Shown piece after piece: positions 939 through 16,643 of a DNA stretch of 16,643 bases. Source of the stretch: Acidobacteriota bacterium (GTDB lineage: Bacteria > Acidobacteriota > Thermoanaerobaculia > Multivoradales > JAHEKO01); NCBI GenBank assembly GCA_024638355.1, contig JAHEKO010000029.1, positions 1-16,643 of the forward strand. Reading direction: 5' to 3'. Under the pieces are notes generated by a model. It was not told the DNA's origin, made no database searches, and saw only the letters and a list, made by a program, of their open reading frames with translations. The position numbers and the translations under genes were made by a program. How positions within the stretch are numbered: position 1 is the stretch's first letter; every line of letters begins with the position of its first letter.

Positions 939-2765
939 ATGCACGCCGGGGAGCGCGAGCGGGGTCGGCGACAGTCGTCGCTGGTCCTCGTCTGCCTGAC
1001 CCTCTTCGTGGTCCTCCTGCCGCTGACTCTCACCAAACCCGGCATTCCGGTGGCTCTCAAAGCCGACGAGGCCGCCTACTACCTCGCCGCCCTGAGCTTC
1101 TGGCACGACGGCGATCTGGTCTGCGACGACGGCGACGCGCGCCGCCTCTTCCGCGAGTATCCGGGGACCCGGAACCTCAAGCTCATCAGTCGCGGCGGCG
1201 GCCGGGCCTACTTCGGCGTGCCGTTCCTCTACCCGCTCGTGGCGACGCCGTGGGTGGCGCTCTTCGGCGCCAACGGCATGGTGGCGCTCAACGCCGCCCT
1301 GCTGATGGTCATGGTGTGGATCGGCTACGCTCACCTTCGGCGCTGGAACGGCGAGTCGCTCTCGACCCTGTTCGCCGCCGGCTACTTCCTGCTGAGCACC
1401 GCGTTCGTCTACGTCTTCTGGCTGCAGGCCGAGGTCTTCAACATGGCCTGCGTGACGGCGGCCTTCTTCCTCGGCCAGCGCGCGGTCGAAGACCTCGGCG
1501 CCCCCGCGGGCCGCCCGCGATCGAGCGGGCGAACGGCGCTCGACGCGGCGGGATCGGCCGCCCTCCTGACCGTCGTCGCCTACAGCCGGCCGATGCTCGC
1601 CGTCCTCGTCTTGCCGCTCCTCTACCCGCTGCTCCGGGCCCGAGCCTGGCGGCGCCTCGCGACGTTCGGCGCCAGCGCCCTTCTGACCCTCGCCCTGCTG
1701 GCCGGCACCGCCTACGGCTTCACCCGGCAGGTGTGGCCCTACTTCGGACCGCGCATGGGGATCGCCCTGACCAGCCCCATCGACTATATGGAGCGCAAGG
1801 TGGAGCGCCGGCTGCCCAAGCGGGAGGCTCCAACCGTACCGGTGGGCCGCATCGAGCGCGCCGTCGGGCAGTTTCGCGTGACGGTGGTGCCGATCGTGAC
1901 CCAGGGAGTTCCAGAGTTCCTCTTCGGCCGGCACGGCGGCTTCTTGATCTACATGCCGTTCGCGGTCCTGGCCATCGGGCTCTTTCTCCTTCACGACCGT
2001 CGCTCGGTATTCAGATGGCTGATCGTGGTCGCCGCCGCCTTCGCGGCGCTGCTCTTCATGACGCTGATTCGCGGCCACTGGCTGGGCGGAGCCGGCTTCG
2101 TCGGCAACCGCTATTTCTCGGCGGTGTACCCCGCCTTCTTCTTCCTGGTCACGCGCGTGCGCCCCGCCTGGCTCACCGCGATCGGCTACGGCGCGGCGGC
2201 GATCTTCCTCGGTCCGGCCTTGATCACGCCCCTGGGCGCCCCGGTCGCCGAGCCGACGCTCCAGGCGCACGTGCGAAACCAGCCGCTGCGGCAGCTGCCG
2301 CTGGAGTGGTCGCTCGTGCGCAAGCTCTCGGGCTACCGCCGGATTCCGGTCGACGACGTCACCCTGCACGCCCGCCGCACCGAGGTCGGACCTCACGACG
2401 GCGAGATCTGGGTGCACGGCGCCAAGCGGGTGGAGATCCACATCCTGAGCCGCGAGCCACGCCGAACCTTCGCCTTCGACGTACGGAACCTGGCCTCCGG
2501 CAACGTCATCGAGCTCTGCCTCGAGGGCGACTGCCGCACCCTCGAGTTCGGTGAGGTTCCGGCCGGCGGCGCCACCAGATCCGTCGCTTTCGCCGAGACT
2601 CGCGGCCGGCCGGTGCCGCGCACCGCCCGAGCGAGCTACCGGTACCGGCTGATCGTCGACTCGCACTGGGGCGAGCAGCCGCGCTGGCGCGGCTCCGGCG
2701 ACGAGCGCTTCTACCTGGGCGCCGCGCTGAAGCTGGTCGATGCGGCCGGAGAGGACGGGCGATAG
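939..2765 (+). CDS. Multi-membrane GT39/ArnT-like glycosyltransferase-type protein with soluble C-terminal domain
   Basis: A 608-residue protein. The first membrane helix spans about residues 14-32 and is followed by an acidic DE pair (D43-E44, in KADEAAYY) at the head of the first outer loop, where GT-C enzymes such as PMT/ArnT carry their catalytic or metal-binding acid. Further hydrophobic segments run from about 93 to 430, ending with a GNRYFSAVYP motif at 389-398. Residues about 440-608 form a soluble, probably beta-rich tail. Expected role: transfer of a sugar from a polyprenyl-phosphate donor at the outer face of the inner membrane, possibly for envelope or exopolysaccharide glycans; donor and acceptor are unknown. 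ATG at 939 is chosen because a short charged N-terminus precedes the first helix. The next gene follows within 40 nt, so co-transcription is likely. The exact family is not certain. Confidence 0.65.
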   Translation: MHAGERERGRRQSSLVLVCLTLFVVLLPLTLTKPGIPVALKADEAAYYLAALSFWHDGDLVCDDGDARRLFREYPGTRNLKLISRGGGRAYFGVPFLYPLVATPWVALFGANGMVALNAALLMVMVWIGYAHLRRWNGESLSTLFAAGYFLLSTAFVYVFWLQAEVFNMACVTAAFFLGQRAVEDLGAPAGRPRSSGRTALDAAGSAALLTVVAYSRPMLAVLVLPLLYPLLRARAWRRLATFGASALLTLALLAGTAYGFTRQVWPYFGPRMGIALTSPIDYMERKVERRLPKREAPTVPVGRIERAVGQFRVTVVPIVTQGVPEFLFGRHGGFLIYMPFAVLAIGLFLLHDRRSVFRWLIVVAAAFAALLFMTLIRGHWLGGAGFVGNRYFSAVYPAFFFLVTRVRPAWLTAIGYGAAAIFLGPALITPLGAPVAEPTLQAHVRNQPLRQLPLEWSLVRKLSGYRRIPVDDVTLHARRTEVGPHDGEIWVHGAKRVEIHILSREPRRTFAFDVRNLASGNVIELCLEGDCRTLEFGEVPAGGATRSVAFAETRGRPVPRTARASYRYRLIVDSHWGEQPRWRGSGDERFYLGAALKLVDAAGEDGR

Positions 2766-2791
2766 TGGTTGTCCGTGAGCCCCGGCGGTGG

Positions 2792-2797
2792 CAAACT
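2792..2797 (+). promoter_or_regulatory. Possible -10 element (CAAACT) upstream of the 2804 start
   Basis: CAAACT followed by CCG lies 6 nt before the GTG at 2804. It resembles TAAGCT+CCG before 939 and TAGAGT+CCG before the minus-strand start at 6977. It supports 2804 rather than 2765 as the gene start. Low confidence because it rests on motif resemblance in GC-rich DNA. Confidence 0.3.
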
Positions 2798-2803
2798 CCG
2801 CGC

Positions 2804-3952
2804 GTGAATCGGGTCGTCGCCGCCGGGGTCGTCATCCTCGGGCTCCTCGCACCCGCCGCCGCGGTAGGCCACGCGGTGGGCGAGGACTACGTCTTCCTCT
2901 CCATCCAGGAGAGCCACATCGAGGGTCACTTCGAGATTCACTTCGGCGACCTCGAGTCCAAGCTGGGTCTCGAGCTCGACCCGAGCCCCGAGGCGGCAGC
3001 GGCGGAGGTGAACCGGACCGCCGCGCGGGTGCGCGCCTACATCGAGGAGAACTTCGCCGTCGCTCCCGAGGGCGGCGAGCCCTTCGACTTCGAGTTCACC
3101 CACCAGGACGTGACGGCGCTGCCGCAGGGCAACTTCGCCCAGTACCACTTCCGGCTCGACACCGGCCCGCTGCCCGATCGCCTCGCCTTGCACCACTCGA
3201 TGTTCTACGAGGACGACAAGCTGCACCGCGGTCTCGTGCTCCTCGAGTACAACGCCAAGACCGACACCACCTACCCGAGCGAGTACACGGCGATGGTGTT
3301 CAGCCCGCGCAACCGGGATCAGACTCTCGACCTGACCGACGTGCCCGCGCTGATGGGACCGCGCGAGATGATCCCGCAGGGCGTCTGGCACATCTGGATC
3401 GGAATCGACCACGTGCTCTTCCTGCTCGCCCTGATGCTCTCCACCGTCCTCGTTCGGGTCGAGGGGCGCTGGCGACCGCTCGAGCGCTTCCCGCCGGCGC
3501 TGTGGAATCTGCTCAAGATCGTCACCGTCTTCACGATCGCGCACTCGGCGACCCTGCTGCTGGCGGCGCTCGACCTGGTGTCGGTGCCTCCCCGGCTGGT
3601 CGAGTCGGTGATCGCCCTGTCGATCGTCCTGGTCGCCGCGAACAACATCTTCGGAGCGGTCCGCGAAGGCTCGCTGCTGATCATCCTCGGCCTCGGTCTC
3701 TTCCACGGCCTCGGCTTCGCCTCGGTGATGGGGCATCTTCCCTTCCGCATGGTCGATCTCCTCGGAGTCGTGATCGGGTTCAACATCGGCGTCGAGCTCG
3801 GCCAGATCGCTATCGTGGCGCTGGTCTTTCCCCTTCTTTTCTGGCTGCGCAGAGCGAGCTTCTACCAGCCCTACATCCTGAAAGGCCTCTCCGCGGTGCT
3901 CATCGTGATCTCCAGCTGGTGGTTCGCGCAGCGCGCCTTCGGCCTCGGCTAG
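2804..3952 (+). CDS. HupE/UreJ_2-family membrane protein with signal peptide
   Basis: A 382-residue protein from GTG 2804; the frame is also open to a GTG at 2765, but 2804 places a clean signal peptide (residues 1-23, cleavage near VGHA) at the N-terminus. Residues about 24-185 form an exported soluble domain. The C-terminal half has about six membrane segments with the family's histidine/acid signature: HIWIGIDH (H196, D202, H203), FTIAHS (H247), ES.IALSI (E267), FHGLGFA (H301) and FNIGVELGQ (N327, E331). HupE/UreJ proteins are known or proposed nickel/cobalt permeases; the HupE/UreJ_2 branch with a large N-terminal domain is poorly characterised, so transport of a transition metal is inference. 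No hydrogenase or urease genes are in view. It ends 7 nt before the carrier-protein gene, but no functional link is evident. Confidence 0.8.
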   Translation: MNRVVAAGVVILGLLAPAAAVGHAVGEDYVFLSIQESHIEGHFEIHFGDLESKLGLELDPSPEAAAAEVNRTAARVRAYIEENFAVAPEGGEPFDFEFTHQDVTALPQGNFAQYHFRLDTGPLPDRLALHHSMFYEDDKLHRGLVLLEYNAKTDTTYPSEYTAMVFSPRNRDQTLDLTDVPALMGPREMIPQGVWHIWIGIDHVLFLLALMLSTVLVRVEGRWRPLERFPPALWNLLKIVTVFTIAHSATLLLAALDLVSVPPRLVESVIALSIVLVAANNIFGAVREGSLLIILGLGLFHGLGFASVMGHLPFRMVDLLGVVIGFNIGVELGQIAIVALVFPLLFWLRRASFYQPYILKGLSAVLIVISSWWFAQRAFGLG

Positions 3953-3959: not shown

Positions 3960-4220
3960 ATGTCGGACGCGCAACGGATCGAACGCCTGATCGCGGACTT
4001 CATTCGCGGCGAGCTGGTCGGCGATGAGACGACGGTGATCGAGCTCGACGAGAACCTGCTGACAAGCGGTCTGGTCGATTCCGTCGGCATCGTTCGCCTG
4101 ATCGCTCACGTGACCGAAAGCCTGGAGGTGACCGTGCCGCCCACCGACCTGGTGCCGGCGAACTTCCGCACCGTCCGCGTCATGGCGGCCTACCTGGCCG
4201 GTCTCGCGAGTACGGGCTAG
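3960..4220 (+). CDS. Free-standing acyl/peptidyl carrier protein
   Basis: An 86-residue protein of typical carrier-protein size. The phosphopantetheine site is Ser41 in the motif GLVDSVGI; the usual DSL is DSV here. Four-helix spacing is preserved, with an acidic helix II region after Ser41. A phosphopantetheinyl transferase must load it; none is in the window. A carrier this close to a free-standing adenylation enzyme (4226-5800) and a dehydrogenase (5832-6977) suggests it holds the activated amino acid while the flavoenzyme oxidises it, as PltL/RedO/CloN5/AnaD-type proteins do, and then donates it to the condensation domain of the NRPS at 7015-11160. It lies on the opposite strand from its presumed partners and converges with the adenylation gene with only 5 nt between stops. 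A carrier for another acyl group is the alternative. Confidence 0.88.
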   Translation: MSDAQRIERLIADFIRGELVGDETTVIELDENLLTSGLVDSVGIVRLIAHVTESLEVTVPPTDLVPANFRTVRVMAAYLAGLASTG

Positions 4221-4229
4221 GCAGCCTAG
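4217..4229. repeat. Inverted repeat holding both convergent stop codons
   Basis: CTAGGC-A-GCCTAG is a perfect 6-bp inverted repeat around one base. The plus-strand TAG stop (4218-4220) sits in one arm and the minus-strand TAG stop (4226-4228) in the other. The one-base centre makes a stable RNA hairpin unlikely, so I do not call it a terminator; the two genes converge with essentially no intergenic space. Confidence 0.5.
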
Positions 4230-5800
4230 GCCGAGAAGGCCCGGCGGAGGGCGGGCCGGTCGATCTTGCCGGTGCCGGTGCGCGGCATCGACTCACGAAC
4301 CTCGATCCGCGACGGTACGGCGTAGGAGGAGAGCCGGCGCGCCGCCTCGCGCCGCAGCCGGCCCGGCTCGAGCCGCGCTCCCGGGACCGGCAGGACCGCG
4401 GCGACGATCGTCAGCTGCCCCGCGGAGTCGCGCACGTCGATCGCCGCCGCTTCGGCGACGGCCGCGTGAGCGCCGAGCACCGCCTCGACCTCGTCGAGCT
4501 CGACCCGGTAGCCCCGCACCTTCACCATCCGGTCCTTGCGTCCGAGAAAGACGAGATTGCCGTCGCCGCGGTCGCGGACCAGATCGCCGGTCCGGTAGAA
4601 GGTGAGGTCGAAGCCGTCGAACAGGGTCTGTCGGAAGAAAGCTCGGCGGTTCAGATCGGGGCGCCGCCAGTAGCCGCGCATCATGGTCGGCGCGCGAATC
4701 AGCAGCTCGCCGGGCTCGCCGGACGCCACCTCCCGGTCGTCGGCGTCGACGATGCGGCCATCGGCCCCGGGCCAGACCGGACCGATCGGGATCGGCCGCT
4801 CGAGGTCGAGCGGCCCGGCAGGCACGTGATAGGCGGTGCACTGGTTGACCTCGGCGGGCCCGTACGAGTTCGAGAAGCGCGCCTGGGGCCAGAGCTCGGC
4901 GAGCCGCGCGACGTACTTGGGGGCGAAGGGCTCGCCGCCGAAGAGCACCCAGCGCAGGCTGCTCAGGTCGCGCTCTTCGATCCCGCCTTCCGTCAGCAGC
5001 TGGATCAACGCCAGCGGTACGGAGTACCAGAAGGTCAGCCGCTCGCGCTCCATGAGCTCGGCCAGGCTGCGCGGGAACATCGTCACCTCTTCGGGGATGA
5101 GGACCGTCGTCGCTCCGCACAGCGGTCCCGTCAGGTACTCGAAGGTGGACATGTCGAAGTGCAGCGGCGAGTGGTTGCCCAGGCGGTCCTCGCCGCGTAC
5201 GCCGTACTCGCGCGCCGACAGCCGGGCGTAGGCGAGGCCGCTGGCGTGGGTGTGCATCAGCCCCTTGGGCACGCCGGTCGAGCCCGAGGTGTACATGACG
5301 TAGGCGAGATCGGGCTCCACCAGACCCACGCCCGGGTCGCGGGCGGGCGAAGCGTCGACCGTTTCCCATGGGAGGAAACGCACCGACGTCGCTCCGCCCG
5401 TGGGGTCGCCGGCTCCGATCACGACGCGCAACGCTTCCGCCTCCGCCGCCACCCGCCCGGCCCGGCGCGCGTGCGACGGATGCGTGATCAGGTGCCGGAT
5501 CCCGCAGTCTTCGACGATGAACTTCACCCGCGCCGGCGGCGCCGCCGGGTCGATCGGCACGTAGGCGGCGCCCGCCTTGAGGATGCCGTAGAGCGCCACC
5601 GGCAGCTCGAGGCGCTTCGTCATGTAGATGCCGACGCGGTCGTGGGGCCGGACCCCCTCCTCGACGAGGAGAGCCGCCAGCCGGTTGGCGGCCGTGACCA
5701 GCTCGGTGTAGGTCAGCGACTCGCCGTCGCAGCGGAACGCCTCGCGCTCGGGCGCGCGCTCGGCCGACTCGTCGACGGAGTGATGCAGCAGGAAACCCAC
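4226..5800 (-). CDS. Free-standing amino-acid adenylation enzyme, possibly L-prolyl-carrier-protein ligase
   Basis: A 524-residue ANL-family adenylation enzyme, full length, without C or carrier domain. Motifs in order: A3 YTSGSTGVPKG (170-180), A4 HFDMSTFE (214-221), A5 NSYGPAE (311-317), A6 GELLI (364-368), A7 YRTGD (402-406), A8 KVRGYRVELDE (427-437), A10 GTGKIDR (509-515) with catalytic Lys512. By alignment to the PheA positions I read the specificity code as D216 M217 F220 Y259 L286 G288 S312 Q320 C321 K512. Asp at the first site indicates an alpha-amino acid. The D-(L/M)-F-Y-L...C-K pattern resembles the prolyl codes I recall for pyrrole-forming ligases (PltF, RedM, CloN4), but sites 7 and 8 (S, Q) differ. 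It probably loads the carrier encoded at 3960. GTG 5800 is used as start; homologues begin at this point. Exosortase-associated ligases of similar appearance are an alternative family. Confidence 0.85.
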   Translation of the reverse strand: MGFLLHHSVDESAERAPEREAFRCDGESLTYTELVTAANRLAALLVEEGVRPHDRVGIYMTKRLELPVALYGILKAGAAYVPIDPAAPPARVKFIVEDCGIRHLITHPSHARRAGRVAAEAEALRVVIGAGDPTGGATSVRFLPWETVDASPARDPGVGLVEPDLAYVMYTSGSTGVPKGLMHTHASGLAYARLSAREYGVRGEDRLGNHSPLHFDMSTFEYLTGPLCGATTVLIPEEVTMFPRSLAELMERERLTFWYSVPLALIQLLTEGGIEERDLSSLRWVLFGGEPFAPKYVARLAELWPQARFSNSYGPAEVNQCTAYHVPAGPLDLERPIPIGPVWPGADGRIVDADDREVASGEPGELLIRAPTMMRGYWRRPDLNRRAFFRQTLFDGFDLTFYRTGDLVRDRGDGNLVFLGRKDRMVKVRGYRVELDEVEAVLGAHAAVAEAAAIDVRDSAGQLTIVAAVLPVPGARLEPGRLRREAARRLSSYAVPSRIEVRESMPRTGTGKIDRPALRRAFSA

Positions 5801-5831: not shown

Positions 5832-6977
5832 TCAGAGGCCCAGAAGGCTGGCGATCAGGTTGCGCTGGATGTCGGAGGTTCCGGCGTAGATCACGCCGCC
5901 GATCGAGTCGCGCAGCTGGCGCTCCACGCCGTGCTCCTCGAGGTAGCCGCGCGCGCCGTGGATGCGCACCGCGTCGGTCGCGCACTCGAGGAGCGACTCG
6001 GCGATGTGCAGGTTGGCCATGGCGCACTCGATCGCCGCGTCGCTCCCCGCGTCCTTCATCTCCGCGACCTTGTACATCAGGAGGCGCGAGGTCTCGAGCC
6101 GCACCTTCATGTCCGCAATCCGGTTCGACACCGACTGGAAATCGCCGATCGGCCGACCGAACTGCCGGCGCTCCCTGGCATAAGCCAGGCATCGCTCGAA
6201 CAGCGCCGTCATCGCCCCCAGATGTCCGGCGTGGATGAAGGCCCGTTCCCAGGAGATCGTCTGGGTGAACAGGCTCATGCCGATCCCTTCACCGCCCAGC
6301 AGATTCTCTTCGGGCACGAAGCAGTCCTCGAAGACCAGGTCGCCGAACGGATTGGTTCTCGTGCCGGTCTTCGGCCGCGGCTCGCTCTGCCTGAAGCCCT
6401 CGGCGCCCCTCTCGACCAGGAACGCCGAGACGCCCCATTTCCCCGCCGCGGGATCGGAGTTGGCGAGCACCAGCGCCAGGTCGGCGAGCGGCGCCATTCC
6501 GACGTAGCTCTTGCGCCCGTTGAGCAGGTAGCCGCCCGCGATCTTGACCGCGCGCGTCCGCAGGCTCAAGGCGTCGGACCCCGCCTCGGGCTCGCTCACG
6601 CCGTGGCAGCCGATCCACTCGCCCGAGGCGAGCGGCGGCAGGTACCTGCGCTTCTGCTCGTCGCTGCCGTAGACCACGATCGGCTCCTGGACGCTCCAGG
6701 TCTGGCCGCCGATCGCCAGCGTCAAACCGTTGTCCTGGCAGCCGTAGCCGATGGCCTCGTGAGTCAGGACGGTGGACACGGCGTCGAGGCCCGCACCGCC
6801 GTACTCCTCGGGCACATGGCACCCGAGAACGCCCCGTGCGCCGCAGCGCTCCCAATCGCCCTTGGCGAACGATCCCCGGCGATCGTTCTCCGCCAGCTTC
6901 GAGCCCAACTCGGTGCGGGCGAACTCGATCATCCGCTGCTGACGCGCGAGCTGCCGCTGGTCGAGAATAGGTAGCAT
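5832..6977 (-). CDS. Acyl-CoA-dehydrogenase-fold flavoenzyme, probable prolyl-carrier-protein dehydrogenase
   Basis: A 381-residue protein with the full acyl-CoA dehydrogenase layout: N-terminal helical domain with VPEEYGG (55-61), middle beta domain with SEPEAGSD (128-135), and C-terminal helical domain with RRQFGRPIGDFQ (270-281) and YAGTSDIQRN (364-373). The catalytic Glu usual in the YEGT motif is Ala365. A Glu is instead present at E244 in ISWER, matching the helix-G base of isovaleryl-CoA dehydrogenase and of prolyl-carrier dehydrogenases (AnaB-type; I recall Glu244 there). Such enzymes use FAD to oxidise prolyl-S-carrier protein to a dehydroprolyl or pyrrolyl thioester. It precedes the adenylation gene by 31 nt on the same strand, and the likely carrier is encoded just beyond that. 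A branched-chain acyl-CoA dehydrogenase is the main alternative; the context argues against it. ATG 6977 is the start. Confidence 0.85.
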   Translation of the reverse strand: MLPILDQRQLARQQRMIEFARTELGSKLAENDRRGSFAKGDWERCGARGVLGCHVPEEYGGAGLDAVSTVLTHEAIGYGCQDNGLTLAIGGQTWSVQEPIVVYGSDEQKRRYLPPLASGEWIGCHGVSEPEAGSDALSLRTRAVKIAGGYLLNGRKSYVGMAPLADLALVLANSDPAAGKWGVSAFLVERGAEGFRQSEPRPKTGTRTNPFGDLVFEDCFVPEENLLGGEGIGMSLFTQTISWERAFIHAGHLGAMTALFERCLAYARERRQFGRPIGDFQSVSNRIADMKVRLETSRLLMYKVAEMKDAGSDAAIECAMANLHIAESLLECATDAVRIHGARGYLEEHGVERQLRDSIGGVIYAGTSDIQRNLIASLLGL

Positions 6978-7014: not shown

Positions 7015-10000
7015 GTGAGCGAACGGACACCTCAGGACGGGCGGCTGACGCACAGTCAGCTGCGGATCTGGATCGGCCAGCGGCTGCATCCGGAGAGTCC
7101 CCTCTACAACATGGCGTTCGCCTGGGTCTTTCCGGCCGAGCTGCGTACCGACCTGTTCCAGCGGGCCTGGCGCCGGGTGGCCGACTCCAGCGACGCCTTG
7201 CGGACCCGCATCGAGGAGCGCGACGGCGAGCCGCGCTGGCGGCTCGCGGAGGCCGGGAGCTGCGTCACGGAGATCGTCGACCTGGAACCCGGAGACGATG
7301 CTCGCCGGACCTTCGGCCGCTGGTGCCGACAGCGCTGCGCGCGGCCGCTGGCCGTCGATGAGGGGCTCGTCGACAGCATGCTGGTCCCGCTCGGGAACGG
7401 CGGGACGGGCTGGTATCTGAATCTGCATCACCTCGTCGCCGACGCCCGGTCGACCGTCCTCCTCTACCGGCAGGTGGCCGCCGAGTACGAGGCGCTCGTG
7501 GCGAGCGACGTCGAGCGGCCGCCCGCGCTCGCCGGCTACTACCCGACTTCGGAGGAGCTCACCGCTCGGGCCCGGGACTCGAAGGCCGCTCGCGAGCACT
7601 GGGCGGCCAGATCCGGAGGCGCGGCGCGCACGATCCCCCTCTACGGCCGCAGCGGCCAGCCGGCCGGCACCGCCAGCACCCGGCTCACCCTGAGCCTCGG
7701 CCGGTTGCGCTCGGCGGCGCTCGATCGGCTGTGCGCCGAGCCGGGATTCCTCAGCCTGTTCGCCGAGACGTCGCGCTTCGCGCTCTTCTCTACGCTGCTT
7801 CTCGGCTGGCTCCATCGCATCAGCGGTCGCTCCGATCTCGGCTTCGACGCGCCGGTGACCGGGCGACCGACCCCGCAGTCGAAGCGTGCGCTCGGCCTGT
7901 TCATCGAGATGTTCCCCTTCGCGGTGGCGCTCGAGCCGGGCGAGACGTTCCGGTCGCTCGGCGCCAAGTGCCTGGCCGAGACCGAGCTCTTCCTGCGCCA
8001 TTCGCTGCCCGGGACGAGCTCGCCTTCGGGCGCGGCGGCCAGCAACGTGGTGCTCAACTTCCTGCCCGACGCGTTCGGCGACTTCGCCGGCTTGCCGGCG
8101 GAGGCCGAGTGGGTTCATCCCGGCCATGGCGACAGCGTGCACGCCTTGCGACTCCAGGTGCACGACTTCGGCGGCATGGACCGCTACGAGCTGCACTTCG
8201 ACTTCAACGAAAGTGCGCTCGCGGACCGGCTACGCCGCCGCGGCCTCGAGCATTTCGAGCGGCTGCTCGAGGCGCTGCTCGAAAATCCCGACGCCGAGAT
8301 CGCGGCCGTCGACGTGCGGACGGACGACGAGCGCCGCGCCCTGGCCGAGCTCAACGACACCGGCGGTCCGCCCCTGCCGGAGCGGTCGCTGGTCGGCGCG
8401 TTCCTCGACCGCGCGGCGGCCGATCCCGACCGCACCGCCCTGCGCGAGGGTAGCTCGGAGCTGTCGTTCGGCGAGCTGCGCGAGCGGGTCGACGCGCTGG
8501 CGGCGGAGCTCGTCGGCCGCGGCGTCGAGGCCGGCGATCGCGTCGCGATCCTCTCGCGGCGCTCGATCGACGCAGTCGTCGCCATCCTCGGGACGCTGCG
8601 CGCGCGGGCGGCCTACGTTCCGATCGATCCAGCCTATCCACGACACCGGGTCGAGGGTCTGCTCGCCGATTCGGGCGCTCGCCTGGTGCTCGCCGGAGAG
8701 CGGATCGAGTCCGCCGTAGTCCCCTCCGGTCTCGCCCTGCTGCCGATCTCCGACGCCGCCCGGACCGGCCGGGAGACGAGCCCCGATCTGCCCGAGCCCG
8801 GGCTCGGCGATCTCTGCTACGTGCTCTACACCTCCGGCTCCACGGGCAGGCCCAAGGGCGTTCTGGTCGAGCACGGCGGCGTGGCCGACTACCTCGAATG
8901 GGCCGCCCGCACCTACGTGCGGGACGAGCGCCTGCGCTTCCCGCTCTTCACCTCGCTCTCCTTCGACCTGACCGTCACCAGCCTCTTCCTGCCGCTCATC
9001 ACCGGCGGCACGCTCGAGATCTACCCCGAGCCGCGGGGGCCGGTCGATTCCTCGCTGATGGACGTCGTGCGGGCGAACGCGGTCGACTTCATCAAGCTCA
9101 CCCCGTCGCACCTGTCGCTGCTGCGTCAGATGCATCCGACCGAGTCGCGCATCCGGCGGATGGTGGTCGGCGGCGAGGACCTCAAGACGCGGCTGGCGGC
9201 CGAGATCGCCGGCCTCCTCGGACCCGACGTCGAGATCTACAACGAGTACGGACCGACGGAGGCGATCGTGGGCTGCGTGGCGCACCGCTACGACCCGGAG
9301 TCCGATACCGGGGCCAGCGTGCCGATCGGCGCGCCGGCGGACCACGTGCGGGTCGAGGTGCTGAACGACACCCTGGCACCGGTACCGGAGGGAGTGGCGG
9401 GCGAGCTCTGGATCTCCCGGTTCGGCCTGGCCCGCGGCTACCAGGGTCTCGAGGAGCTGACCGCCGAGCGCTTTCGGGTGCGGGCGGGCGCCCGCAGCTA
9501 CCGCACCGGCGACGTGGTGCGCCTGGCCGATTCGCACGGGCTCGAGTACCTCGGGCGCCTCGACCGCCAGGTCAAGATCGCGGGCTTCCGGGTCGAGCCG
9601 GGCGAGATCGAGGCCGCCCTGCTGTCCATACCCGGGATCGAGCAGTGCGCCGTGGTGGCCCGGCGCCCGGGCCCGGCCGCCGACGACGGCGGCGACGGGG
9701 TCCGGCACTGCCGCCGCTGCGGCCTGCCGTCGAATCACCCGCGGGCGCTCCTCGACGACGGCGGCGAGTGCGCCGTCTGCCGCTCCTACGACACGATCCG
9801 GGAGCACGCCCGCGGCTACTTCCGAACCCTCGACGATCTGCGGGAGCTGTTCGCGGAGTCCGCCCGCCGCAACCCATCCGACTACGACTGCATGATGCTC
9901 TACAGCGGCGGCAAGGACTCGACCTACGCGCTCTGCCGCCTCGTCGAGATGGGTCTGTCGGTCTACGCCTTCACCCTCGACAACGGCTTCATCTCTGACG

Positions 10001-11160
10001 GCGCCAAGGAGAACATCCGCAGGGTGACGGCCCAGCTCGGCGTACCGATCGAGTTCGCCACGACGCCGGCGATGAACGCCATCTTCCGCGACAGCCTGGC
10101 GCGTTTCGACAACGTCTGCCAGGGCTGCTTCAAGACGATCTTCACGCTCTCGACGCTGCGCGCGCGGCAGCTGGGAGTCCCGATCATCGTCACCGGGCTG
10201 TCGCGCGGGCAGATGTTCGAGACCCGGCTGACCGAGGAGATGTTTCGCGACGGTCGCTTCAGCCCCGACGAGATCGACGCCGCGGTGCTGGCCGCGCGCA
10301 AGGCCTACCACCGCACCGACGACGAGGTCGCCCGCTCGCTCGACGTGAGCGTCTTTCGCGACGACCGGGTCTTCGAGGAGATCCGCTTCGTCGACTTCTA
10401 CCGCTACTGCGACGTCGGCCTCGGCGAGCTGCTCGCCTACCTGCGGCGCCGGGTGCCGTGGGTGCGCCCCGAGGACACCGGCCGCTCGACCAACTGCCTG
10501 ATCAACGACGTCGGCATCTACGTCCACAAGCGGCGGCGCGGCTTCCACAACTACGCCCTGCCCTACAGCTGGGACGTGCGCATGGGGCACAAGAGCCGCG
10601 ACGAGGCCCGCGACGAGCTGGACGACGACATCGACCAGGCGCAAGTGCGCCGCATCCTCTCCGAGATCGGCGCCGACCCGGAGAGCGTGACGGCCGACGA
10701 CGCCGCGCCGCGCCTGGCGGCGTTCTACGTGTCGACCAGCGAGATCGCCGACGACGAGCTCCGCCGCCGGCTCGCCGAGCGCCTCCCTTCCGCCCTCGTC
10801 CCTTCTCATCTGCAGCGGGTCGACGCGATCCCGCTGACGGTCCAGGGCAAGGTGGACGAAGCGCGCCTGCCGCGACTCGAGCTCGAGGCGCGACCCGCGG
10901 GGACGCCCTACCGCCCGCCCGACGGTCCGGTCGAGAGCTACCTGGCCGCGGTCTGGCGGGAACAGCTCGGCGTCGATCGCGTCGGCGCCGAAGACAGCTT
11001 CTTCGAGCTCGGCGGCACCTCGCTCACCGCCATGGAGGTGATGATCCGGCTCTGCCGCGAGTACGACATCGACCTGCCCCTCGGCACCCTGTTCTCGCAC
11101 CCGAAGCTCGGCTCGCTCGCCCGCGTCGCCGAAGACCGCATCCTCGCCGACGTCCCCTGA
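7015..11160 (+). CDS. NRPS module C-A-PCP with PP-loop ATPase inserted in the adenylation domain; Asn-type code
   Basis: A 1381-residue single-module synthetase. Condensation domain about 1-445 with HHLVADA (138-144): both His and Asp143 are kept, and the usual final Gly is Ala. Adenylation core about 455-885: A3 YTSGSTGRPKG (605-615), A4 FDLTV (650-654), A5 NEYGPTE (743-749), A7 YRTGD (829-833), A8 KIAGFRVEPGE (854-864). The A9/A10 part resumes at about 1233-1290 with Lys1279 in QGKVD. The carrier domain at about 1300-1375 has Ser1336 in LGGTSL. Residues about 886-1232 are a foreign insert (described separately). The specificity code D651 L652 T655 K694 V717 G719 E744 V752 G753 K1279 is the asparagine pattern. 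There is no C-terminal thioesterase. The N-terminal C domain implies a donor made elsewhere, probably on the carrier at 3960. GTG start supported by AGGTGG at 7005-7010; the whole module is one unbroken frame. Confidence 0.93.
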   Translation: MSERTPQDGRLTHSQLRIWIGQRLHPESPLYNMAFAWVFPAELRTDLFQRAWRRVADSSDALRTRIEERDGEPRWRLAEAGSCVTEIVDLEPGDDARRTFGRWCRQRCARPLAVDEGLVDSMLVPLGNGGTGWYLNLHHLVADARSTVLLYRQVAAEYEALVASDVERPPALAGYYPTSEELTARARDSKAAREHWAARSGGAARTIPLYGRSGQPAGTASTRLTLSLGRLRSAALDRLCAEPGFLSLFAETSRFALFSTLLLGWLHRISGRSDLGFDAPVTGRPTPQSKRALGLFIEMFPFAVALEPGETFRSLGAKCLAETELFLRHSLPGTSSPSGAAASNVVLNFLPDAFGDFAGLPAEAEWVHPGHGDSVHALRLQVHDFGGMDRYELHFDFNESALADRLRRRGLEHFERLLEALLENPDAEIAAVDVRTDDERRALAELNDTGGPPLPERSLVGAFLDRAAADPDRTALREGSSELSFGELRERVDALAAELVGRGVEAGDRVAILSRRSIDAVVAILGTLRARAAYVPIDPAYPRHRVEGLLADSGARLVLAGERIESAVVPSGLALLPISDAARTGRETSPDLPEPGLGDLCYVLYTSGSTGRPKGVLVEHGGVADYLEWAARTYVRDERLRFPLFTSLSFDLTVTSLFLPLITGGTLEIYPEPRGPVDSSLMDVVRANAVDFIKLTPSHLSLLRQMHPTESRIRRMVVGGEDLKTRLAAEIAGLLGPDVEIYNEYGPTEAIVGCVAHRYDPESDTGASVPIGAPADHVRVEVLNDTLAPVPEGVAGELWISRFGLARGYQGLEELTAERFRVRAGARSYRTGDVVRLADSHGLEYLGRLDRQVKIAGFRVEPGEIEAALLSIPGIEQCAVVARRPGPAADDGGDGVRHCRRCGLPSNHPRALLDDGGECAVCRSYDTIREHARGYFRTLDDLRELFAESARRNPSDYDCMMLYSGGKDSTYALCRLVEMGLSVYAFTLDNGFISDGAKENIRRVTAQLGVPIEFATTPAMNAIFRDSLARFDNVCQGCFKTIFTLSTLRARQLGVPIIVTGLSRGQMFETRLTEEMFRDGRFSPDEIDAAVLAARKAYHRTDDEVARSLDVSVFRDDRVFEEIRFVDFYRYCDVGLGELLAYLRRRVPWVRPEDTGRSTNCLINDVGIYVHKRRRGFHNYALPYSWDVRMGHKSRDEARDELDDDIDQAQVRRILSEIGADPESVTADDAAPRLAAFYVSTSEIADDELRRRLAERLPSALVPSHLQRVDAIPLTVQGKVDEARLPRLELEARPAGTPYRPPDGPVESYLAAVWREQLGVDRVGAEDSFFELGGTSLTAMEVMIRLCREYDIDLPLGTLFSHPKLGSLARVAEDRILADVP
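9670..10710 (+). other. PP-loop / TtcA-like domain inserted between motifs A8 and A9 of the NRPS
   Basis: Protein residues about 886-1232. In order: a CxxC...CxxC ribbon (C899, C902, C919, C922), a helical linker, the PP-loop YSGGKDS (963-969) of alpha-hydrolase ATP pyrophosphatases, LDNGF (988-992), CQGC (C1035, C1038), GLSRGQ (1061-1066), then TNC with C1161 and a HNYALPYSWDVR segment (1178-1189). PP-loop enzymes adenylate a carbonyl or amide oxygen, which a nucleophile then displaces. CxxC plus a later Cys is how TtcA/TtuA-type thiolases hold a [4Fe-4S] cluster, and an N-terminal zinc ribbon occurs in TtuA and in sugar amidotransferases (WbpG/PseA-like). The insertion site is the one NRPSs use for embedded methyltransferases. 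Thiolation, amidine formation or nitrile formation (as in QueC) are all possible; the reaction is inferred. Confidence 0.85.
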
Positions 11161-11200: not shown

Positions 11201-11527
11201 CTACGAGGCGCGCCGGTCGGCCAGCCGGTTGTAGACCCGGGCCAGCACGTACCCGATCACGGCGCCGGCCACGGCGCCGTACACGAACCCGAGGAAGGCG
11301 CCGCCCCAGCTCACCGAGTAGCCCGGGAAATAGAAGCGCAGCAGCGAGAGGTGCTGGCCGACCCGCTCGCCGCCGCGGACGAGCAGCCAGACGGTGGCGA
11401 TCCACAGCCCGGTGCCGCAGGTCAAGCCGAAGACCGTGGCCATCACGCCGCTGCGCAGCCGCGCCACGGCGCGCGCCAGCGCGCGCTCCTGGAGCTCCTC
11501 GAGACCGGGCGTCCGCTCGTTATTCAA
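11201..11527 (-). CDS. Small two-helix membrane protein, paralogous to the C-terminal domain of the upstream oxidoreductase
   Basis: A 108-residue protein from TTG 11527, which overlaps the end of the upstream gene by 8 nt; an ATG at codon 29 is an alternative but would cut into the first helix. Two membrane helices (about 28-50 and 74-97) flank a short loop. Residues about 61-101 align without gaps to the tail of the oxidoreductase encoded at 11520-13343: 21 of 41 positions are identical, including LSLL, Y..GY.VSW.G, GF, GY.LAR and N. Thus it is a duplicated, free copy of that membrane domain. The function is not recognised; being last in a coupled run, it may partner the oxidoreductase in the membrane, for example as a hetero-pair of helical hairpins. 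Confidence 0.75.
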   Translation of the reverse strand: MNNERTPGLEELQERALARAVARLRSGVMATVFGLTCGTGLWIATVWLLVRGGERVGQHLSLLRFYFPGYSVSWGGAFLGFVYGAVAGAVIGYVLARVYNRLADRRAS

Positions 11528-13475: not shown

Positions 13476-14243
13476 CTAGGCCTTCGCGCGACGGCCTGCC
13501 AGCAGATGCACCAGGACACCCACCCGCTGGGCTGGGCCGAGCTCGCGGAACGTCGCGATCTGCGAGTTCGTGCGGCGGTAGAGCTTGAGGCGCTCGGCGC
13601 GCGCCCGACCCCGCTCGAACTCGAGGTGGGTGACCTCCATGCCGCGGTCGAACCTGACCTCGAGCTCGGGCCGGCGCGCGGCCAGACGGTGCACCAGCTC
13701 GCTGTCGGCGGCGCGCTGCCACTCTTCGAAGGGCCCGATCTCGTCGAAGACCGAGGTCCGAACCGCCATGTTGTTGGCGTAGGCGAAGTGATGCGCCGGC
13801 TCGCAGTGCCCGAGCACGTACTCGGCCTTCGCGTTCTCCCAGGCGCCCAGCAGCCGCAGGGGCCACGACGCGCCGCCGCCGTAGCTGCAGGCGCCGAGCA
13901 GGATCGCCGTCCGCGGTTCGCGCATGCCGTCGAGAATCGCCCTGAGCCAGCCGCGCCCGACGACGCAGTCGGCGTCGGTCAGCGCGATCACCGGGGCCGA
14001 TGCCGCCCGGATGCCGGCGTTGCGCGCGGCGTAGGCGCCGCGCTTCGGCTCGCGCAGGAGCCTCACCTCGTCGTAGCGCCCGGCAATCGCCGCCGAGCCG
14101 TCGCTCGAGCCGTTGTCGATCAGCAGGATCTCGTAGCGCTCGTCGACGCCCTGCTGGACCAGCAACGACTCGATGCACGCGGCGAGATAGCGCTCGCTGT
14201 CGAAAAAGGGCACCACGACCGAGACCAGGGGACGCTCGCTCAT
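13476..14243 (-). CDS. Family 2 glycosyltransferase (GT-A fold)
   Basis: A 255-residue protein from ATG 14243. The frame stays open upstream to 14573, but that stretch overlaps the sulfotransferase gene, and the GT2 domain begins right after this ATG with LVSVVVPFFDSERYL (6-20). LIDNGSSDGS (41-50) binds the nucleotide, and the metal-binding DxD is D90-A-D92 in LTDADC. The later acidic segment is FEEWQRAADSE, where GT2 enzymes usually keep the general-base ED region. It transfers a sugar from a nucleotide-sugar; donor and acceptor cannot be read from sequence. No membrane helix is evident. The ATG overlaps the TGA of the sulfotransferase (ATGA), so translation is probably coupled. It could decorate a lipid, a glycan or the peptide product. 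Confidence 0.85.
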   Translation of the reverse strand: MSERPLVSVVVPFFDSERYLAACIESLLVQQGVDERYEILLIDNGSSDGSAAIAGRYDEVRLLREPKRGAYAARNAGIRAASAPVIALTDADCVVGRGWLRAILDGMREPRTAILLGACSYGGGASWPLRLLGAWENAKAEYVLGHCEPAHHFAYANNMAVRTSVFDEIGPFEEWQRAADSELVHRLAARRPELEVRFDRGMEVTHLEFERGRARAERLKLYRRTNSQIATFRELGPAQRVGVLVHLLAGRRAKA

Positions 14244-15106
14244 GACGTGGTGCTCTCGACCACTCGCGAGTAGAGGTCGCGGCGCAGGGCGGCGGTCGCG
14301 CGCTCGCGCTCCGCGTCGGTCAGCGCGTGGCCGGAGGTGGCGGAGGGGCGGAGGCCGCGTCCGGACCCCTCCTTCCAGCTCTCCCGCGGAGTGATCAGGC
14401 GGGCGGAGGCATCGGCGAAGCTCTCCAGGATCTCGGGCTCCCACTCGAGATCGAGTGCGGCGAGGAGCCGCCCGAGCGCCGCCTCGGGCCGCGCCGTCAG
14501 CTCCTCGTAGACGACGAAGTGGTCGTGCGGCCGGCCGACCCGGCCGAGAGAGAACTCGACGTCCGCGTTCCACCGCTCGACACAGCGGTCGAGATCGTAG
14601 GCTCGCTCCCAGCTGCGCGAGGCCGTGCGCAGCGAAGCGACGACCTCGAGGCCGTCGCGCACCACGTGCACGAACCGACTCCGCCCCACGGGCTCGGAGA
14701 GCCGCTCGAGGAAGGGAACGAAGCGCAGATGCCGCGGCGTCTTCTCGACCCAGATCGACCGCGCGCGCAGCCCGGCCATGTCGTCCAGGAGGCGCAGGAG
14801 CTGGCGCGCGACCGAGCGCGTTCGGAACGGCAGGAAGGGCGCCGGCGGCACCGCCCGCCGGACGCGCTCCGCGGCGGCGGTGGCCTCCAGGCCGTTCTCG
14901 GCCAGAAACTCGCCGACCCGCGGCATGGGATCGCGCACCAGTAGCGCCGACGCCGCCGTGACCAGCTTGAAGTGGCGCGCGAAGAGGTGGCTCTCGGTAA
15001 ACGAGGTCACGCGGCTGTGCGCGGCCAGCAGGCTCTGGACCAGCGTCGTGCCGGAGCGCGGCACTCCGACGACGAAGACGCGCCGTTCGATCTCGGGCCG
15101 GGGCAT
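14240..15106 (-). CDS. PAPS-dependent sulfotransferase
   Basis: A 288-residue protein. The frame is open further upstream to 15844, but ATG 15106 overlaps the stop of the preceding gene (TGATG), and the family begins here: VGVPRSGTTLVQSLL (13-27) is the 5'-phosphosulfate loop of PAPS. Other family marks are WVEKTPRH (119-126) and the 3'-phosphate site FVHVVRDG with R150 and S158. It moves a sulfate from PAPS to a hydroxyl or amine of a small molecule, sugar or lipid; the substrate is unknown. It lies between a methyltransferase and a glycosyltransferase in one coupled run, which suggests successive tailoring of one product, possibly a sulfated glycan. Confidence 0.87.
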   Translation of the reverse strand: MPRPEIERRVFVVGVPRSGTTLVQSLLAAHSRVTSFTESHLFARHFKLVTAASALLVRDPMPRVGEFLAENGLEATAAAERVRRAVPPAPFLPFRTRSVARQLLRLLDDMAGLRARSIWVEKTPRHLRFVPFLERLSEPVGRSRFVHVVRDGLEVVASLRTASRSWERAYDLDRCVERWNADVEFSLGRVGRPHDHFVVYEELTARPEAALGRLLAALDLEWEPEILESFADASARLITPRESWKEGSGRGLRPSATSGHALTDAERERATAALRRDLYSRVVESTTS

Positions 15107-15879
15107 CAGGCTTGCGGTTTCACGGCGATCAGGGTGAAGAACGGCCGCAGCGAGGGCACCAGCCGCTCCGCGACCCCCACCAGACCGCGGCCGTAGCCGC
15201 CGCGGTAGATGATCTCGGTCACCCGAAAGCCGACGCGGCTCAGGAACTCGGCGACCTCGCGGGTCGTGTACTCGCGCACGTGGCCCATGTGGCCCAGGGT
15301 CGCGAGCTTCTCGTACTGGCGGTAGACCCCGGCCGAGGCGGCGTGGCCCTGGTTGCGCAGCACGAGGTTGCGAATGCCCCGGAACGAGCGCAGGTTCGGG
15401 GTCGACAGCAGCAGCCGGCCGCCTGGCTCGAGCACCCGGAGCACCTCGCCGAGCGTCGCGATCGGGTCGATGCGCAGATGCTCGAACAGCTCGTTGAAGA
15501 CGACCGCCTCGAAGGCCCCGGCATCGAACGGCAGGGGCTCCCTTTCGACGTCGCATCTGTGGAGTTCGAGCCCCAGCTCGGCGACGGCCGCAGCGAACCG
15601 CTCCGGCGCGATATCGACGGCGCGAACCGCGTATCCGAGCTCGGAGAGAGCGCCCGTCGTGAGAAGCGGTATCGCCCCGACCTCGAGGATTCGCGCACCC
15701 GGCGCGATGTGCCGCTCGACGATCAGCAGGTCGCCCGCCAGGCGCCGTCTGTGCTCGCGGACGTATCCCGAGTACCAGGGCTCGAGGGCCGGCTCGTCGG
15801 GCCGCACTCGCGAGGCGATGGCGTCGAGGAGCTCGAAGCACCACCCGGGAAATCGCCGCGGCTCGGAGTACACGCGCAC
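15106..15879 (-). CDS. Class I SAM-dependent methyltransferase
   Basis: A 257-residue protein with a seven-strand Rossmann methyltransferase pattern: motif I ILEVGAIP (64-71), the acidic end of strand 2 VDIAP (88-92), CDVEREPLPF (109-118), the motif FNELFEHL (128-135) and LEPGGRLLLSTPN (150-162). Motif I has a single Gly where GxGxG is common, but the rest is regular (Methyltransf_11/23 type). An N-, O- or C-methyl acceptor cannot be chosen. GTG 15879 starts 4 nt after the thioesterase stop; a second GTG two codons later is equally possible. The gene overlaps the sulfotransferase by one base (TGATG). Confidence 0.82.
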   Translation of the reverse strand: MRVYSEPRRFPGWCFELLDAIASRVRPDEPALEPWYSGYVREHRRRLAGDLLIVERHIAPGARILEVGAIPLLTTGALSELGYAVRAVDIAPERFAAAVAELGLELHRCDVEREPLPFDAGAFEAVVFNELFEHLRIDPIATLGEVLRVLEPGGRLLLSTPNLRSFRGIRNLVLRNQGHAASAGVYRQYEKLATLGHMGHVREYTTREVAEFLSRVGFRVTEIIYRGGYGRGLVGVAERLVPSLRPFFTLIAVKPQA

Positions 15880-15883
15880 GGTC

Positions 15884-16643
15884 TCAGGCTCGCGAGGCCT
15901 CTCCCAGATCCCGCAGGTGGTGCAGGATCAGCTCCTTGGCGCCCCGGATCGAGTCCTCGTCCAGATGCGGATCGGGGATGTCGTGCACGGTGAACGGACC
16001 CCGGAACCAGGGCCGCCAGGTGGCGGCGGCGTCGGTCTCGGGCTCGCGCGCGTTGAAGATCACCGTCGGCGTTTCGACCAGCCCGGGCCGGTAGCCGGCA
16101 TGGAGCCGGAAGCGCTCCAGGCGCAAATCGGCGTGCAGAACCCGCGCCGAGAGCGGCCGTCCCGCGCGCACTCGAGCCCCGGCTGTCAGACAGAGGAGGC
16201 GCCGCCCCGGCTGGATCGCCAGCAGCCGCCAGAGGCGGGCGTAGAGGCGGCGCCCGAACGGGTGGTTGGCGCGCGCGAAGCGGCCGAGAGCTTCGCCCAT
16301 GGAGAGCTCTTCCAGCGGCTGGCGCAGCCCGTCGATCTGGAATCGCAGCGGCCCGGCACGGTAGAGGTCGAGCGGCATGGGCGCGATCAGGTAGAGACGC
16401 TCGACGGGCATCCCCCGTGCCTCCATCAGGCGCACGGCCTCCACCGCCATCGTGCCGCCGAAGGAGTAGCCGGCCATGATGCAGGGCTCGTCCGGGAACC
16501 GCCGGGCGATCTCCTCCACCATCTCCTCGCCCAGATCGCGCATCGTCGGCCACCGGCCCCGGTTCCCCTCGGGCCGCAGGCTGACGCCGCGCAGGCCGTA
16601 CACCGGCCGCTCGCCGCGGAATCTGGCCGCGAAGGTGTCGGAG
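15884..16643 (-). CDS. Thioesterase domain (NRPS/PKS type), N-terminus beyond the window
   Basis: The frame runs to the right edge. A GTG at 16603 is possible as a start, but 13 further codons in the same frame (FAARFRGERP before VYGL) continue the usual thioesterase beginning, so the gene is treated as cut. The nucleophile motif GYSFGG (GxSxG, Ser at 16463-16465) is clear, and the His lies in DPHLDED near the C-terminus. At the place where many type I thioesterases have the catalytic Asp (after the strand RLYLI) there is Ala-Pro, so the acid may come from another position, such as the REPETD stretch. It hydrolyses or transfers thioester-bound acyl or peptidyl chains. The NRPS at 7015 has none of its own, so this could release its product or proofread; it may also be the end of a larger synthetase or ligase. 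First gene of the coupled minus-strand run in view. Confidence 0.8.
   Translation of the reverse strand, partial: SDTFAARFRGERPVYGLRGVSLRPEGNRGRWPTMRDLGEEMVEEIARRFPDEPCIMAGYSFGGTMAVEAVRLMEARGMPVERLYLIAPMPLDLYRAGPLRFQIDGLRQPLEELSMGEALGRFARANHPFGRRLYARLWRLLAIQPGRRLLCLTAGARVRAGRPLSARVLHADLRLERFRLHAGYRPGLVETPTVIFNAREPETDAAATWRPWFRGPFTVHDIPDPHLDEDSIRGAKELILHHLRDLGEASRA

Follow-up and report, generated by a model that had tools for sequence, protein, structure and literature searches.

A 2019 study described thioamides as exceedingly rare among non-ribosomal peptides and presented CtaC as the first non-ribosomal peptide thioamide synthetase (PMC6772006, as far as its available text goes). CtaC is the carrier-dependent thioamide synthetase of closthioamide, a stand-alone AANH/PP-loop protein with an iron-sulfur (Fe-S) cluster. 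Its activity was lost upon mutation of D77 or S78 in the ATP motif and weakened upon mutation of C154, C157 or C284 (PMC6772006, available text). Adenylation (A) domains of non-ribosomal peptide synthetases (NRPSs) can be interrupted by other domains, for which the stretch between motifs a8 and a9 is a known site (PMC11355689 and PMC8949500, in their available text). Here we describe an NRPS that carries a PP-loop ATP pyrophosphatase domain at this site. It is encoded in a 16,643-nucleotide stretch of an Acidobacteriota genome (contig JAHEKO010000029.1 of assembly GCA_024638355.1), hereafter called the window. Judging from sequence, we give a probability of roughly 60% to the insert being an embedded thioamide synthetase that would act on a carrier-bound substrate.

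Architecture of the synthetase

The synthetase and its parts were located in the window as follows.

7015..11160, +: NRPS, condensation (C) domain, A domain (Asn-type, PP-loop-interrupted) and peptidyl carrier (PCP) domain; one open reading frame (ORF), 1381 amino acids (aa)
7045..8364, +: C domain with HHLVADA motif; the Pfam match stops at aa 315, end set by eye before the A domain
8407..9666, +: A domain, motifs A1-A8, code DLTKVGEVGK (Asn-type)
9697..10686, +: embedded PP-loop ATP pyrophosphatase domain, about aa 895-1224
9709..9780, +: tetracysteine C899, C902, C919, C922, predicted Zn site as in LpNASAT (8wex)
9904..9921, +: PP-loop SGGKDS, aa 964-969
10117..10128, +: C1035-x-x-C1038, predicted [4Fe-4S] ligands
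10495..10497, +: C1161, predicted third [4Fe-4S] ligand
10687..10884, +: remainder of the A C-terminal subdomain, A9 and A10 (K1279); outer limits set by eye
10939..11124, +: PCP domain, Pfam match

Pfam recognized Condensation (aa 11-315), AMP-binding (465-809), AMP-binding_C (1232-1279) and PP-binding (1309-1370), the adenylation core extending to aa 884. A1-A8, a foreign catalytic domain and A9-A10 thus follow one another in a single frame, the arrangement of an interrupted A domain. The insert modelled alone with AlphaFold gave a mean pLDDT of 92.6 and a pTM of 0.91. In the model of the A-insert-A-PCP part (pLDDT 89.6, pTM 0.68), the strands that flank it (aa 875-883 and 1233-1240) both belong to the A C-terminal subdomain, which sets the insert downstream of A8 and upstream of A9. 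Pfam/NCBIfam and the model therefore bear out the original prediction that a PP-loop ATPase is inserted between A8 and A9 while A9/A10 and the carrier stay intact. The presence of the insert at about residues 886-1232 also held, and its limits were tightened to those listed above. The A10 lysine (Lys1279) was present in 118 of 121 aligned rows, the other three having a gap at this position. The third-codon-position GC content (GC3) of the insert (0.963) was near that of the remaining ORF (0.90-0.92).

Recurrence across genomes

A protein search scored on the insert and restricted to proteins in the size range of the full synthetase covered 7996 candidates, of which 2116 matched at E ≤ 1e-3; among the matches listed, the only annotation was 'amino acid adenylation domain-containing protein'. 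An insert-only search yielded 436 matches. These look like fragments of the same synthetases, since 101 of the 120 matches listed also contained a carrier or AMP-binding_C domain (PF00550 or PF13193). In a scan of genome contigs, 404 stretches fitted a pattern, 342 encoded a relative and 80 loci were retained for locus counts. The insert-bearing frame at these loci contained an A-domain piece in 79/80, a C domain in 72/80 and a PCP in 66/80 (BLAST, E < 1e-8), several of the 80 contigs terminating within the synthetase gene. The combination of AMP-binding, PP-loop and carrier domains, for which a search had been proposed, is hence widespread.

By record title, the loci belonged to Acidobacteriota, Gemmatimonadetes, Verrucomicrobia-type taxa, Chloroflexi-type Anaerolineae, Actinobacteria-type taxa, Bacteroidetes, Cyanobacteria, Proteobacteria, Myxococcota, Pirellulaceae (Planctomycetes) and Calditrichaeota. 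Named strains with such a synthetase include members of Leptolyngbya, Neolewinella, Algoriphagus and Roseovarius. Among 196 genomes of relatives of the window's organism, 46 had a match of any strength to TIGR03573 (WbuX, N-acetyl sugar amidotransferase) and four had one above its cut-off. The insert was carried by 16 of 29 loci taken from these relatives (L082-L110), with 56-78% identity. An assembly join was rejected because the same junction recurred in independent genomes (342 genome loci, with an A-domain piece in frame at 79/80) and on the complete Roseovarius pelagicus plasmid NZ_CP106737.1, where the homologue is annotated as a single NRPS. A phage origin was likewise discarded, as a phage collection contained no match.

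Conserved residues and kinship of the insert

The profile search confirmed the PP-loop kinship of the insert. TIGR03573 was the closest named family (aa 897-1214, E 2.1e-28), although the score of 99.8 bits stayed below its cut-off of 203.2. QueC matched weakly, and no Pfam family scored above its cut-off in the insert region. Two signatures coincide in the insert: the tetracysteine CXXCXn[GN]XCXXC with SGGXDS, features of N-acetyl sugar amidotransferases, and SGGxDS with a CXXC and a distant third cysteine, the signature of [4Fe-4S] PP-loop sulfur transferases. In an alignment of 191 insert sequences (the window and 190 near-full-length sequences out of 239 matches, at least 50.8% identical to the query), SGGKDS, C1035, C1038 and C1161 were at least 98% conserved. 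They were kept in 81/81 rows from genome loci; C1161 is the independent part of this result, because the scan patterns contain SGGKDS or CxxC.

A CxxC 40-110 residues past the PP-loop start was missing in all seven WbuX-type proteins compared (four above the TIGR03573 cut-off, three related), and a WbuX of the Roseovarius plasmid likewise had no CxxC after the PP-loop. A CxxC was present in 30/30 LarE rows. Its offset from the PP-loop start was 70 residues in the five LarE rows for which it is known and 71 in the insert of the window. In a profile alignment (hhalign, 95.8%), C1035 and C1038 fell on the LarE CxxC; with the LarE profile, the local alignment ended before the third cysteine. The range ends of several LarE alignments imply that C1161 (model residue 276) falls on LarE residue 176, and Cys176 is the sulfur-donating cysteine of LarE (PMC9283937, available text). 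Sulfur insertion, rather than amidation, is the chemistry predicted from this arrangement of cysteines.

In a tree of 47 rows, the embedded domains formed one group (95/98), with a protein of Streptomyces sp. NBC_01216 among them. The WbuX rows did not group together but were interspersed with distant proteins bearing a CxxC; as the tree also carried long-branch warnings, no inference on the parent family is made. The plasmid-encoded Streptomyces protein (L111:14938-17118) has a PP-loop domain 41% identical to the insert that shares the tetracysteine and the CxxC-C cysteines. It differs in that this domain does not interrupt an A domain: a condensation-like domain is fused behind it, and asnB and a gene for a separate A-PCP protein are neighbours. 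An amino acid racemase also adjoins (L111:11196-17888), and a tyrosine 2,3-aminomutase lies ~10 kb further. The insert is also related (hhalign 100%, E 1.6e-40) to an unnamed stand-alone PP-loop family that shares C1035, C1038 and C1161. Its members (L124:7755-8903, proteins P0242-P0313), with CxxC and [ST]NC cysteines, come from taxa including Streptomyces, Frankia and Burkholderia, and one of them adjoins an acyl carrier protein and a ketosynthase.

Proposed reaction

The A code of the window, DLTKVGEVGK, recurred in relatives. All 121 aligned rows (119 besides the window, which is counted twice) read DLTKxGEV[GA], three of them with a gap at the last place. All 78 main-domain codes read (76 loci and the window twice) had the form DLTKxGE[VI][GA]. 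We take a code of the DLTKxGE[VI] type to denote Asn, and the interrupted A domain is predicted to select asparagine.

In the proposed mechanism, the A domain would load Asn onto the PCP, and the carrier arm would reach the embedded domain. There, the PP-loop and ATP would adenylate an amide oxygen. A sulfide on the unique iron of a predicted [4Fe-4S] cluster, ligated by C1035, C1038 and C1161, would then attack and AMP would depart. The modified amide would be either the side-chain carboxamide of Asn, giving thio-asparagine, or the new backbone amide between a Pro-derived acyl group and Asn. The chain would pass to a second synthetase (A code DSALVGEVWK) and be released by its thioesterase. 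Thioamide formation is favoured because it uses every conserved feature: ATP, the three cysteines, the missing HisH/HisF partner and the tethering to a carrier.

Between the two amides, we lean slightly towards the side chain because of the Asn-type codes throughout and because a protein without a C domain was found in Microvirga calopogonii. This A-insert-A-PCP protein (L065:8528-11500) has the A domain at its start, and a search of its locus with three C-domain queries gave no match. Three points weigh against the side chain. CtaC chemistry acts on the backbone; since the second A code is conserved too, the constancy of Asn may simply follow from that of the product; and the A domain next to the free-standing PP-loop domain of the Streptomyces relative lacks an Asn code, as read by eye.

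The first rival is an embedded amidotransferase: an amidine would form as ammonia displaces AMP from the adenylated amide, the reaction proposed for WbpG/WbuX. Among named families, the closest one is of this kind, but the insert stays below its cut-off and has the CxxC that the WbuX-type rows lack. In addition, the HisH/HisF ammonia supply expected to adjoin such a domain gave no match at the 80 loci and in the window (one query each, from the Roseovarius plasmid; other ammonia sources were not searched), while the WbuX of that plasmid adjoins both. A plain WbuX-type enzyme was demoted on these three grounds, and we regard amidation as unlikely. The plasmid is a natural control, with WbuX, HisF and HisH (L112:1-3304) ~14 kb from the embedded-domain synthetase. 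Elsewhere, in a genome of the same family as the window's organism (L090) and on a Solidesulfovibrio plasmid (L125:5122-7086), a WbuX-like PP-loop domain is joined to what appears by eye to be a class II glutamine amidotransferase; in L125, asnB genes and a glycosyltransferase come next.

With an embedded cyclodehydratase, the activated amide would instead be attacked intramolecularly; for instance, the side-chain nitrogen of Asn could add to the acyl-Asn carbonyl and close a dihydropyrimidinone-like ring. The models for this are the PP-loop proteins CongE and OzmP, for which oxazole closure on an assembly line has been proposed (PMC4504003, available text). Asn supplies a well-placed nucleophile, and the HisH/HisF result agrees with this chemistry. 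It leaves the three invariant extra cysteines unexplained, however, and the role of CongE is itself a proposal, which makes it similarly doubtful. We consider a nitrile synthetase improbable: adenylation of the Asn carboxamide and loss of AMP would yield beta-cyanoalanine on the carrier, but the alignment spans only 166 residues and C1035, C1038 and C1161 would have no role. A passenger or structural insertion without catalysis is highly improbable since, although inserted domains can be inert and the activity of this one is only predicted, its catalytic residues were invariant in the examined rows from many phyla by record title.

The suggestion of the original prediction that the insert may be an on-line amide-activating tailoring domain thus gains support from the invariant catalytic residues, the Asn-type codes and the precedents of CtaC and CongE/OzmP.

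Neighbouring genes and putative product

The genes around the synthetase were the following.

2765..3952, +: HupE/UreJ_2 permease
3960..4220, +: stand-alone carrier protein
4226..5800, -: stand-alone adenylation enzyme, with L-prolyl-carrier ligases among its solved relatives
5832..6977, -: prolyl-carrier-protein dehydrogenase-like protein, best PDB match 4irn
11520-13343: PRK07208-type FAD oxidoreductase
13476..14243, -: family 2 glycosyltransferase (GT2), start set by eye
14240..15100, -: sulfotransferase
15106..15879, -: methyltransferase
15884..16643, -: thioesterase end of the second NRPS, which continues on another contig of the same assembly (C552)

Contig C552 overlaps the last 121 bases of the window exactly and holds the A code DSALVGEVWK. 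Neighbours were counted by BLAST or A code at the 80 loci and, in brackets, at the 46 loci whose flanks exceed 4.5 kb upstream and 4 kb downstream of the gene. A stand-alone prolyl-type A enzyme was found in 58/80 (43/46), a PCP in 60/80 (43/46), the dehydrogenase-like protein in 53/80 (42/46) and a second A domain with a DS[AV]L.GEVW code in 46/80 (34/46). HupE occurred in 45/80 (32/46), an ornithine cyclodeaminase (OCD) family protein in 27/80 (24/46), a phosphopantetheinyl transferase (PPTase) in 14/80 (12/46) and a TonB receptor in 10/80 (10/46). Family 1 glycosyltransferases (GT1) were present in 16/80 (13/46), GT2 in 13/80 (8/46), sulfotransferases in 12/80 (9/46) and methyltransferases in 8/80 (7/46). 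The FAD oxidoreductase was found at 0/80 other loci and is therefore left out of the pathway; with a small ORF (together 11201-13343), it lies between the synthetase and the block from GT2 to the second NRPS. Two adjoining hydrophobic ORFs (3-896 and 939-2765) had no Pfam match and no BLAST relative in the other loci.

The best solved relative of the dehydrogenase is a prolyl-ACP dehydrogenase (4irn), and its scores lie below the equivalog cut-offs of the two best families (RedW, 369.8 against 650 bits; PigA, 361.3 against 500 bits). The stand-alone A enzyme matched linear gramicidin synthase best among solved structures, its relatives including the prolyl-carrier ligases 6o6e and 7thn. A full-text literature search for three variants of the DSALVGEVW code gave no mention that would name the amino acid; the code bears a likeness to His codes. 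We infer a backbone of a proline-derived starter, then Asn, then a further residue, and the neighbours suggest a peptide combining a Pro-derived unit and thio-Asn.

That the product binds metal is a guess based on the HupE and TonB receptor genes at the loci. The window's HupE was the only PF13795 member found in the 82.5% complete assembly, and the six TonB-bearing loci listed are from Bacteroidota. HupE/UreJ occurred 0 times in the methanobactin paper, and HupE was named in none of the matches listed from literature on HupE and metallophores. A possible, tentative extension, which we hold with less than even confidence, is that a built-in iron-sulfur thioamide synthetase of some eleven phyla makes a methanobactin-like metallophore of a Pro-derived heterocycle and thio-Asn, with its own HupE uptake and, in some Bacteroidota, a TonB receptor.

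If the insert does form thioamides, such machinery is built into a widespread synthetase that public annotation labels solely by its adenylation domain, and an unmined compound family would be within reach in strains of Leptolyngbya, Neolewinella, Algoriphagus and Roseovarius. An ATP-dependent amide-editing domain would also join the list of A-domain inserts.

Comparison with known systems

The architecture is an A-domain interruption of known type with a PP-loop insert, which we did not find described in the open-licence literature, an absence that is weak evidence. As in other interrupted A domains, the insertion lies between a8 and a9 and the A domain is otherwise whole. In contrast, the inserts named in the available text of reviews are methyltransferases, oxidases/monooxygenases and reductases, including ketoreductases, with no PP-loop ATPase among them. 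A 2020 survey of interrupted A domains reportedly covers only methyltransferase inserts. In relatives, a methyltransferase-like stretch interrupts the A domain of the second synthetase, too, again after A8 (L016:11506-19790; L019:11514-17221; L043:12802-18012). In L016, this stretch is joined to A(N) and A9-A10 lie on the following gene; in L019, it forms a gene of its own, flanked by A(N) and A(C)-PCP-C; L043 is apparently also split. A domains may function as two chains divided at the insertion site.

With WbuX, WbpG and LpNASAT, the insert shares the tetracysteine and SGGXDS; it differs by its score below the TIGR03573 cut-off, its three extra cysteines and the HisH/HisF genes not found nearby. 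It matches the CXXC-C [4Fe-4S] signature of TtuA and LarE, but the substrates of TtuA/NcsA and [4Fe-4S] LarE are tRNA or a nicotinic-acid-derived nucleotide, and in the five LarE rows compared no CxxC precedes the PP-loop, where the insert has its tetracysteine. CongE and OzmP are likewise PP-loop proteins serving an NRPS-PKS (polyketide synthase) line, yet they are stand-alone and proposed for oxazole closure (PMC4504003, available text). CtaC resembles the insert in its PP-loop, three functionally important cysteines and carrier-bound substrate (PMC6772006, available text). By the published residue positions, C157 and C284 of CtaC are 127 residues apart, against 123 in the insert, and S78 and C154 are 76 apart, against 66. 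CtaC is a stand-alone protein of a pathway that its authors, in the text available, call NRPS-independent, whereas the domain in the window lies inside an NRPS A domain.
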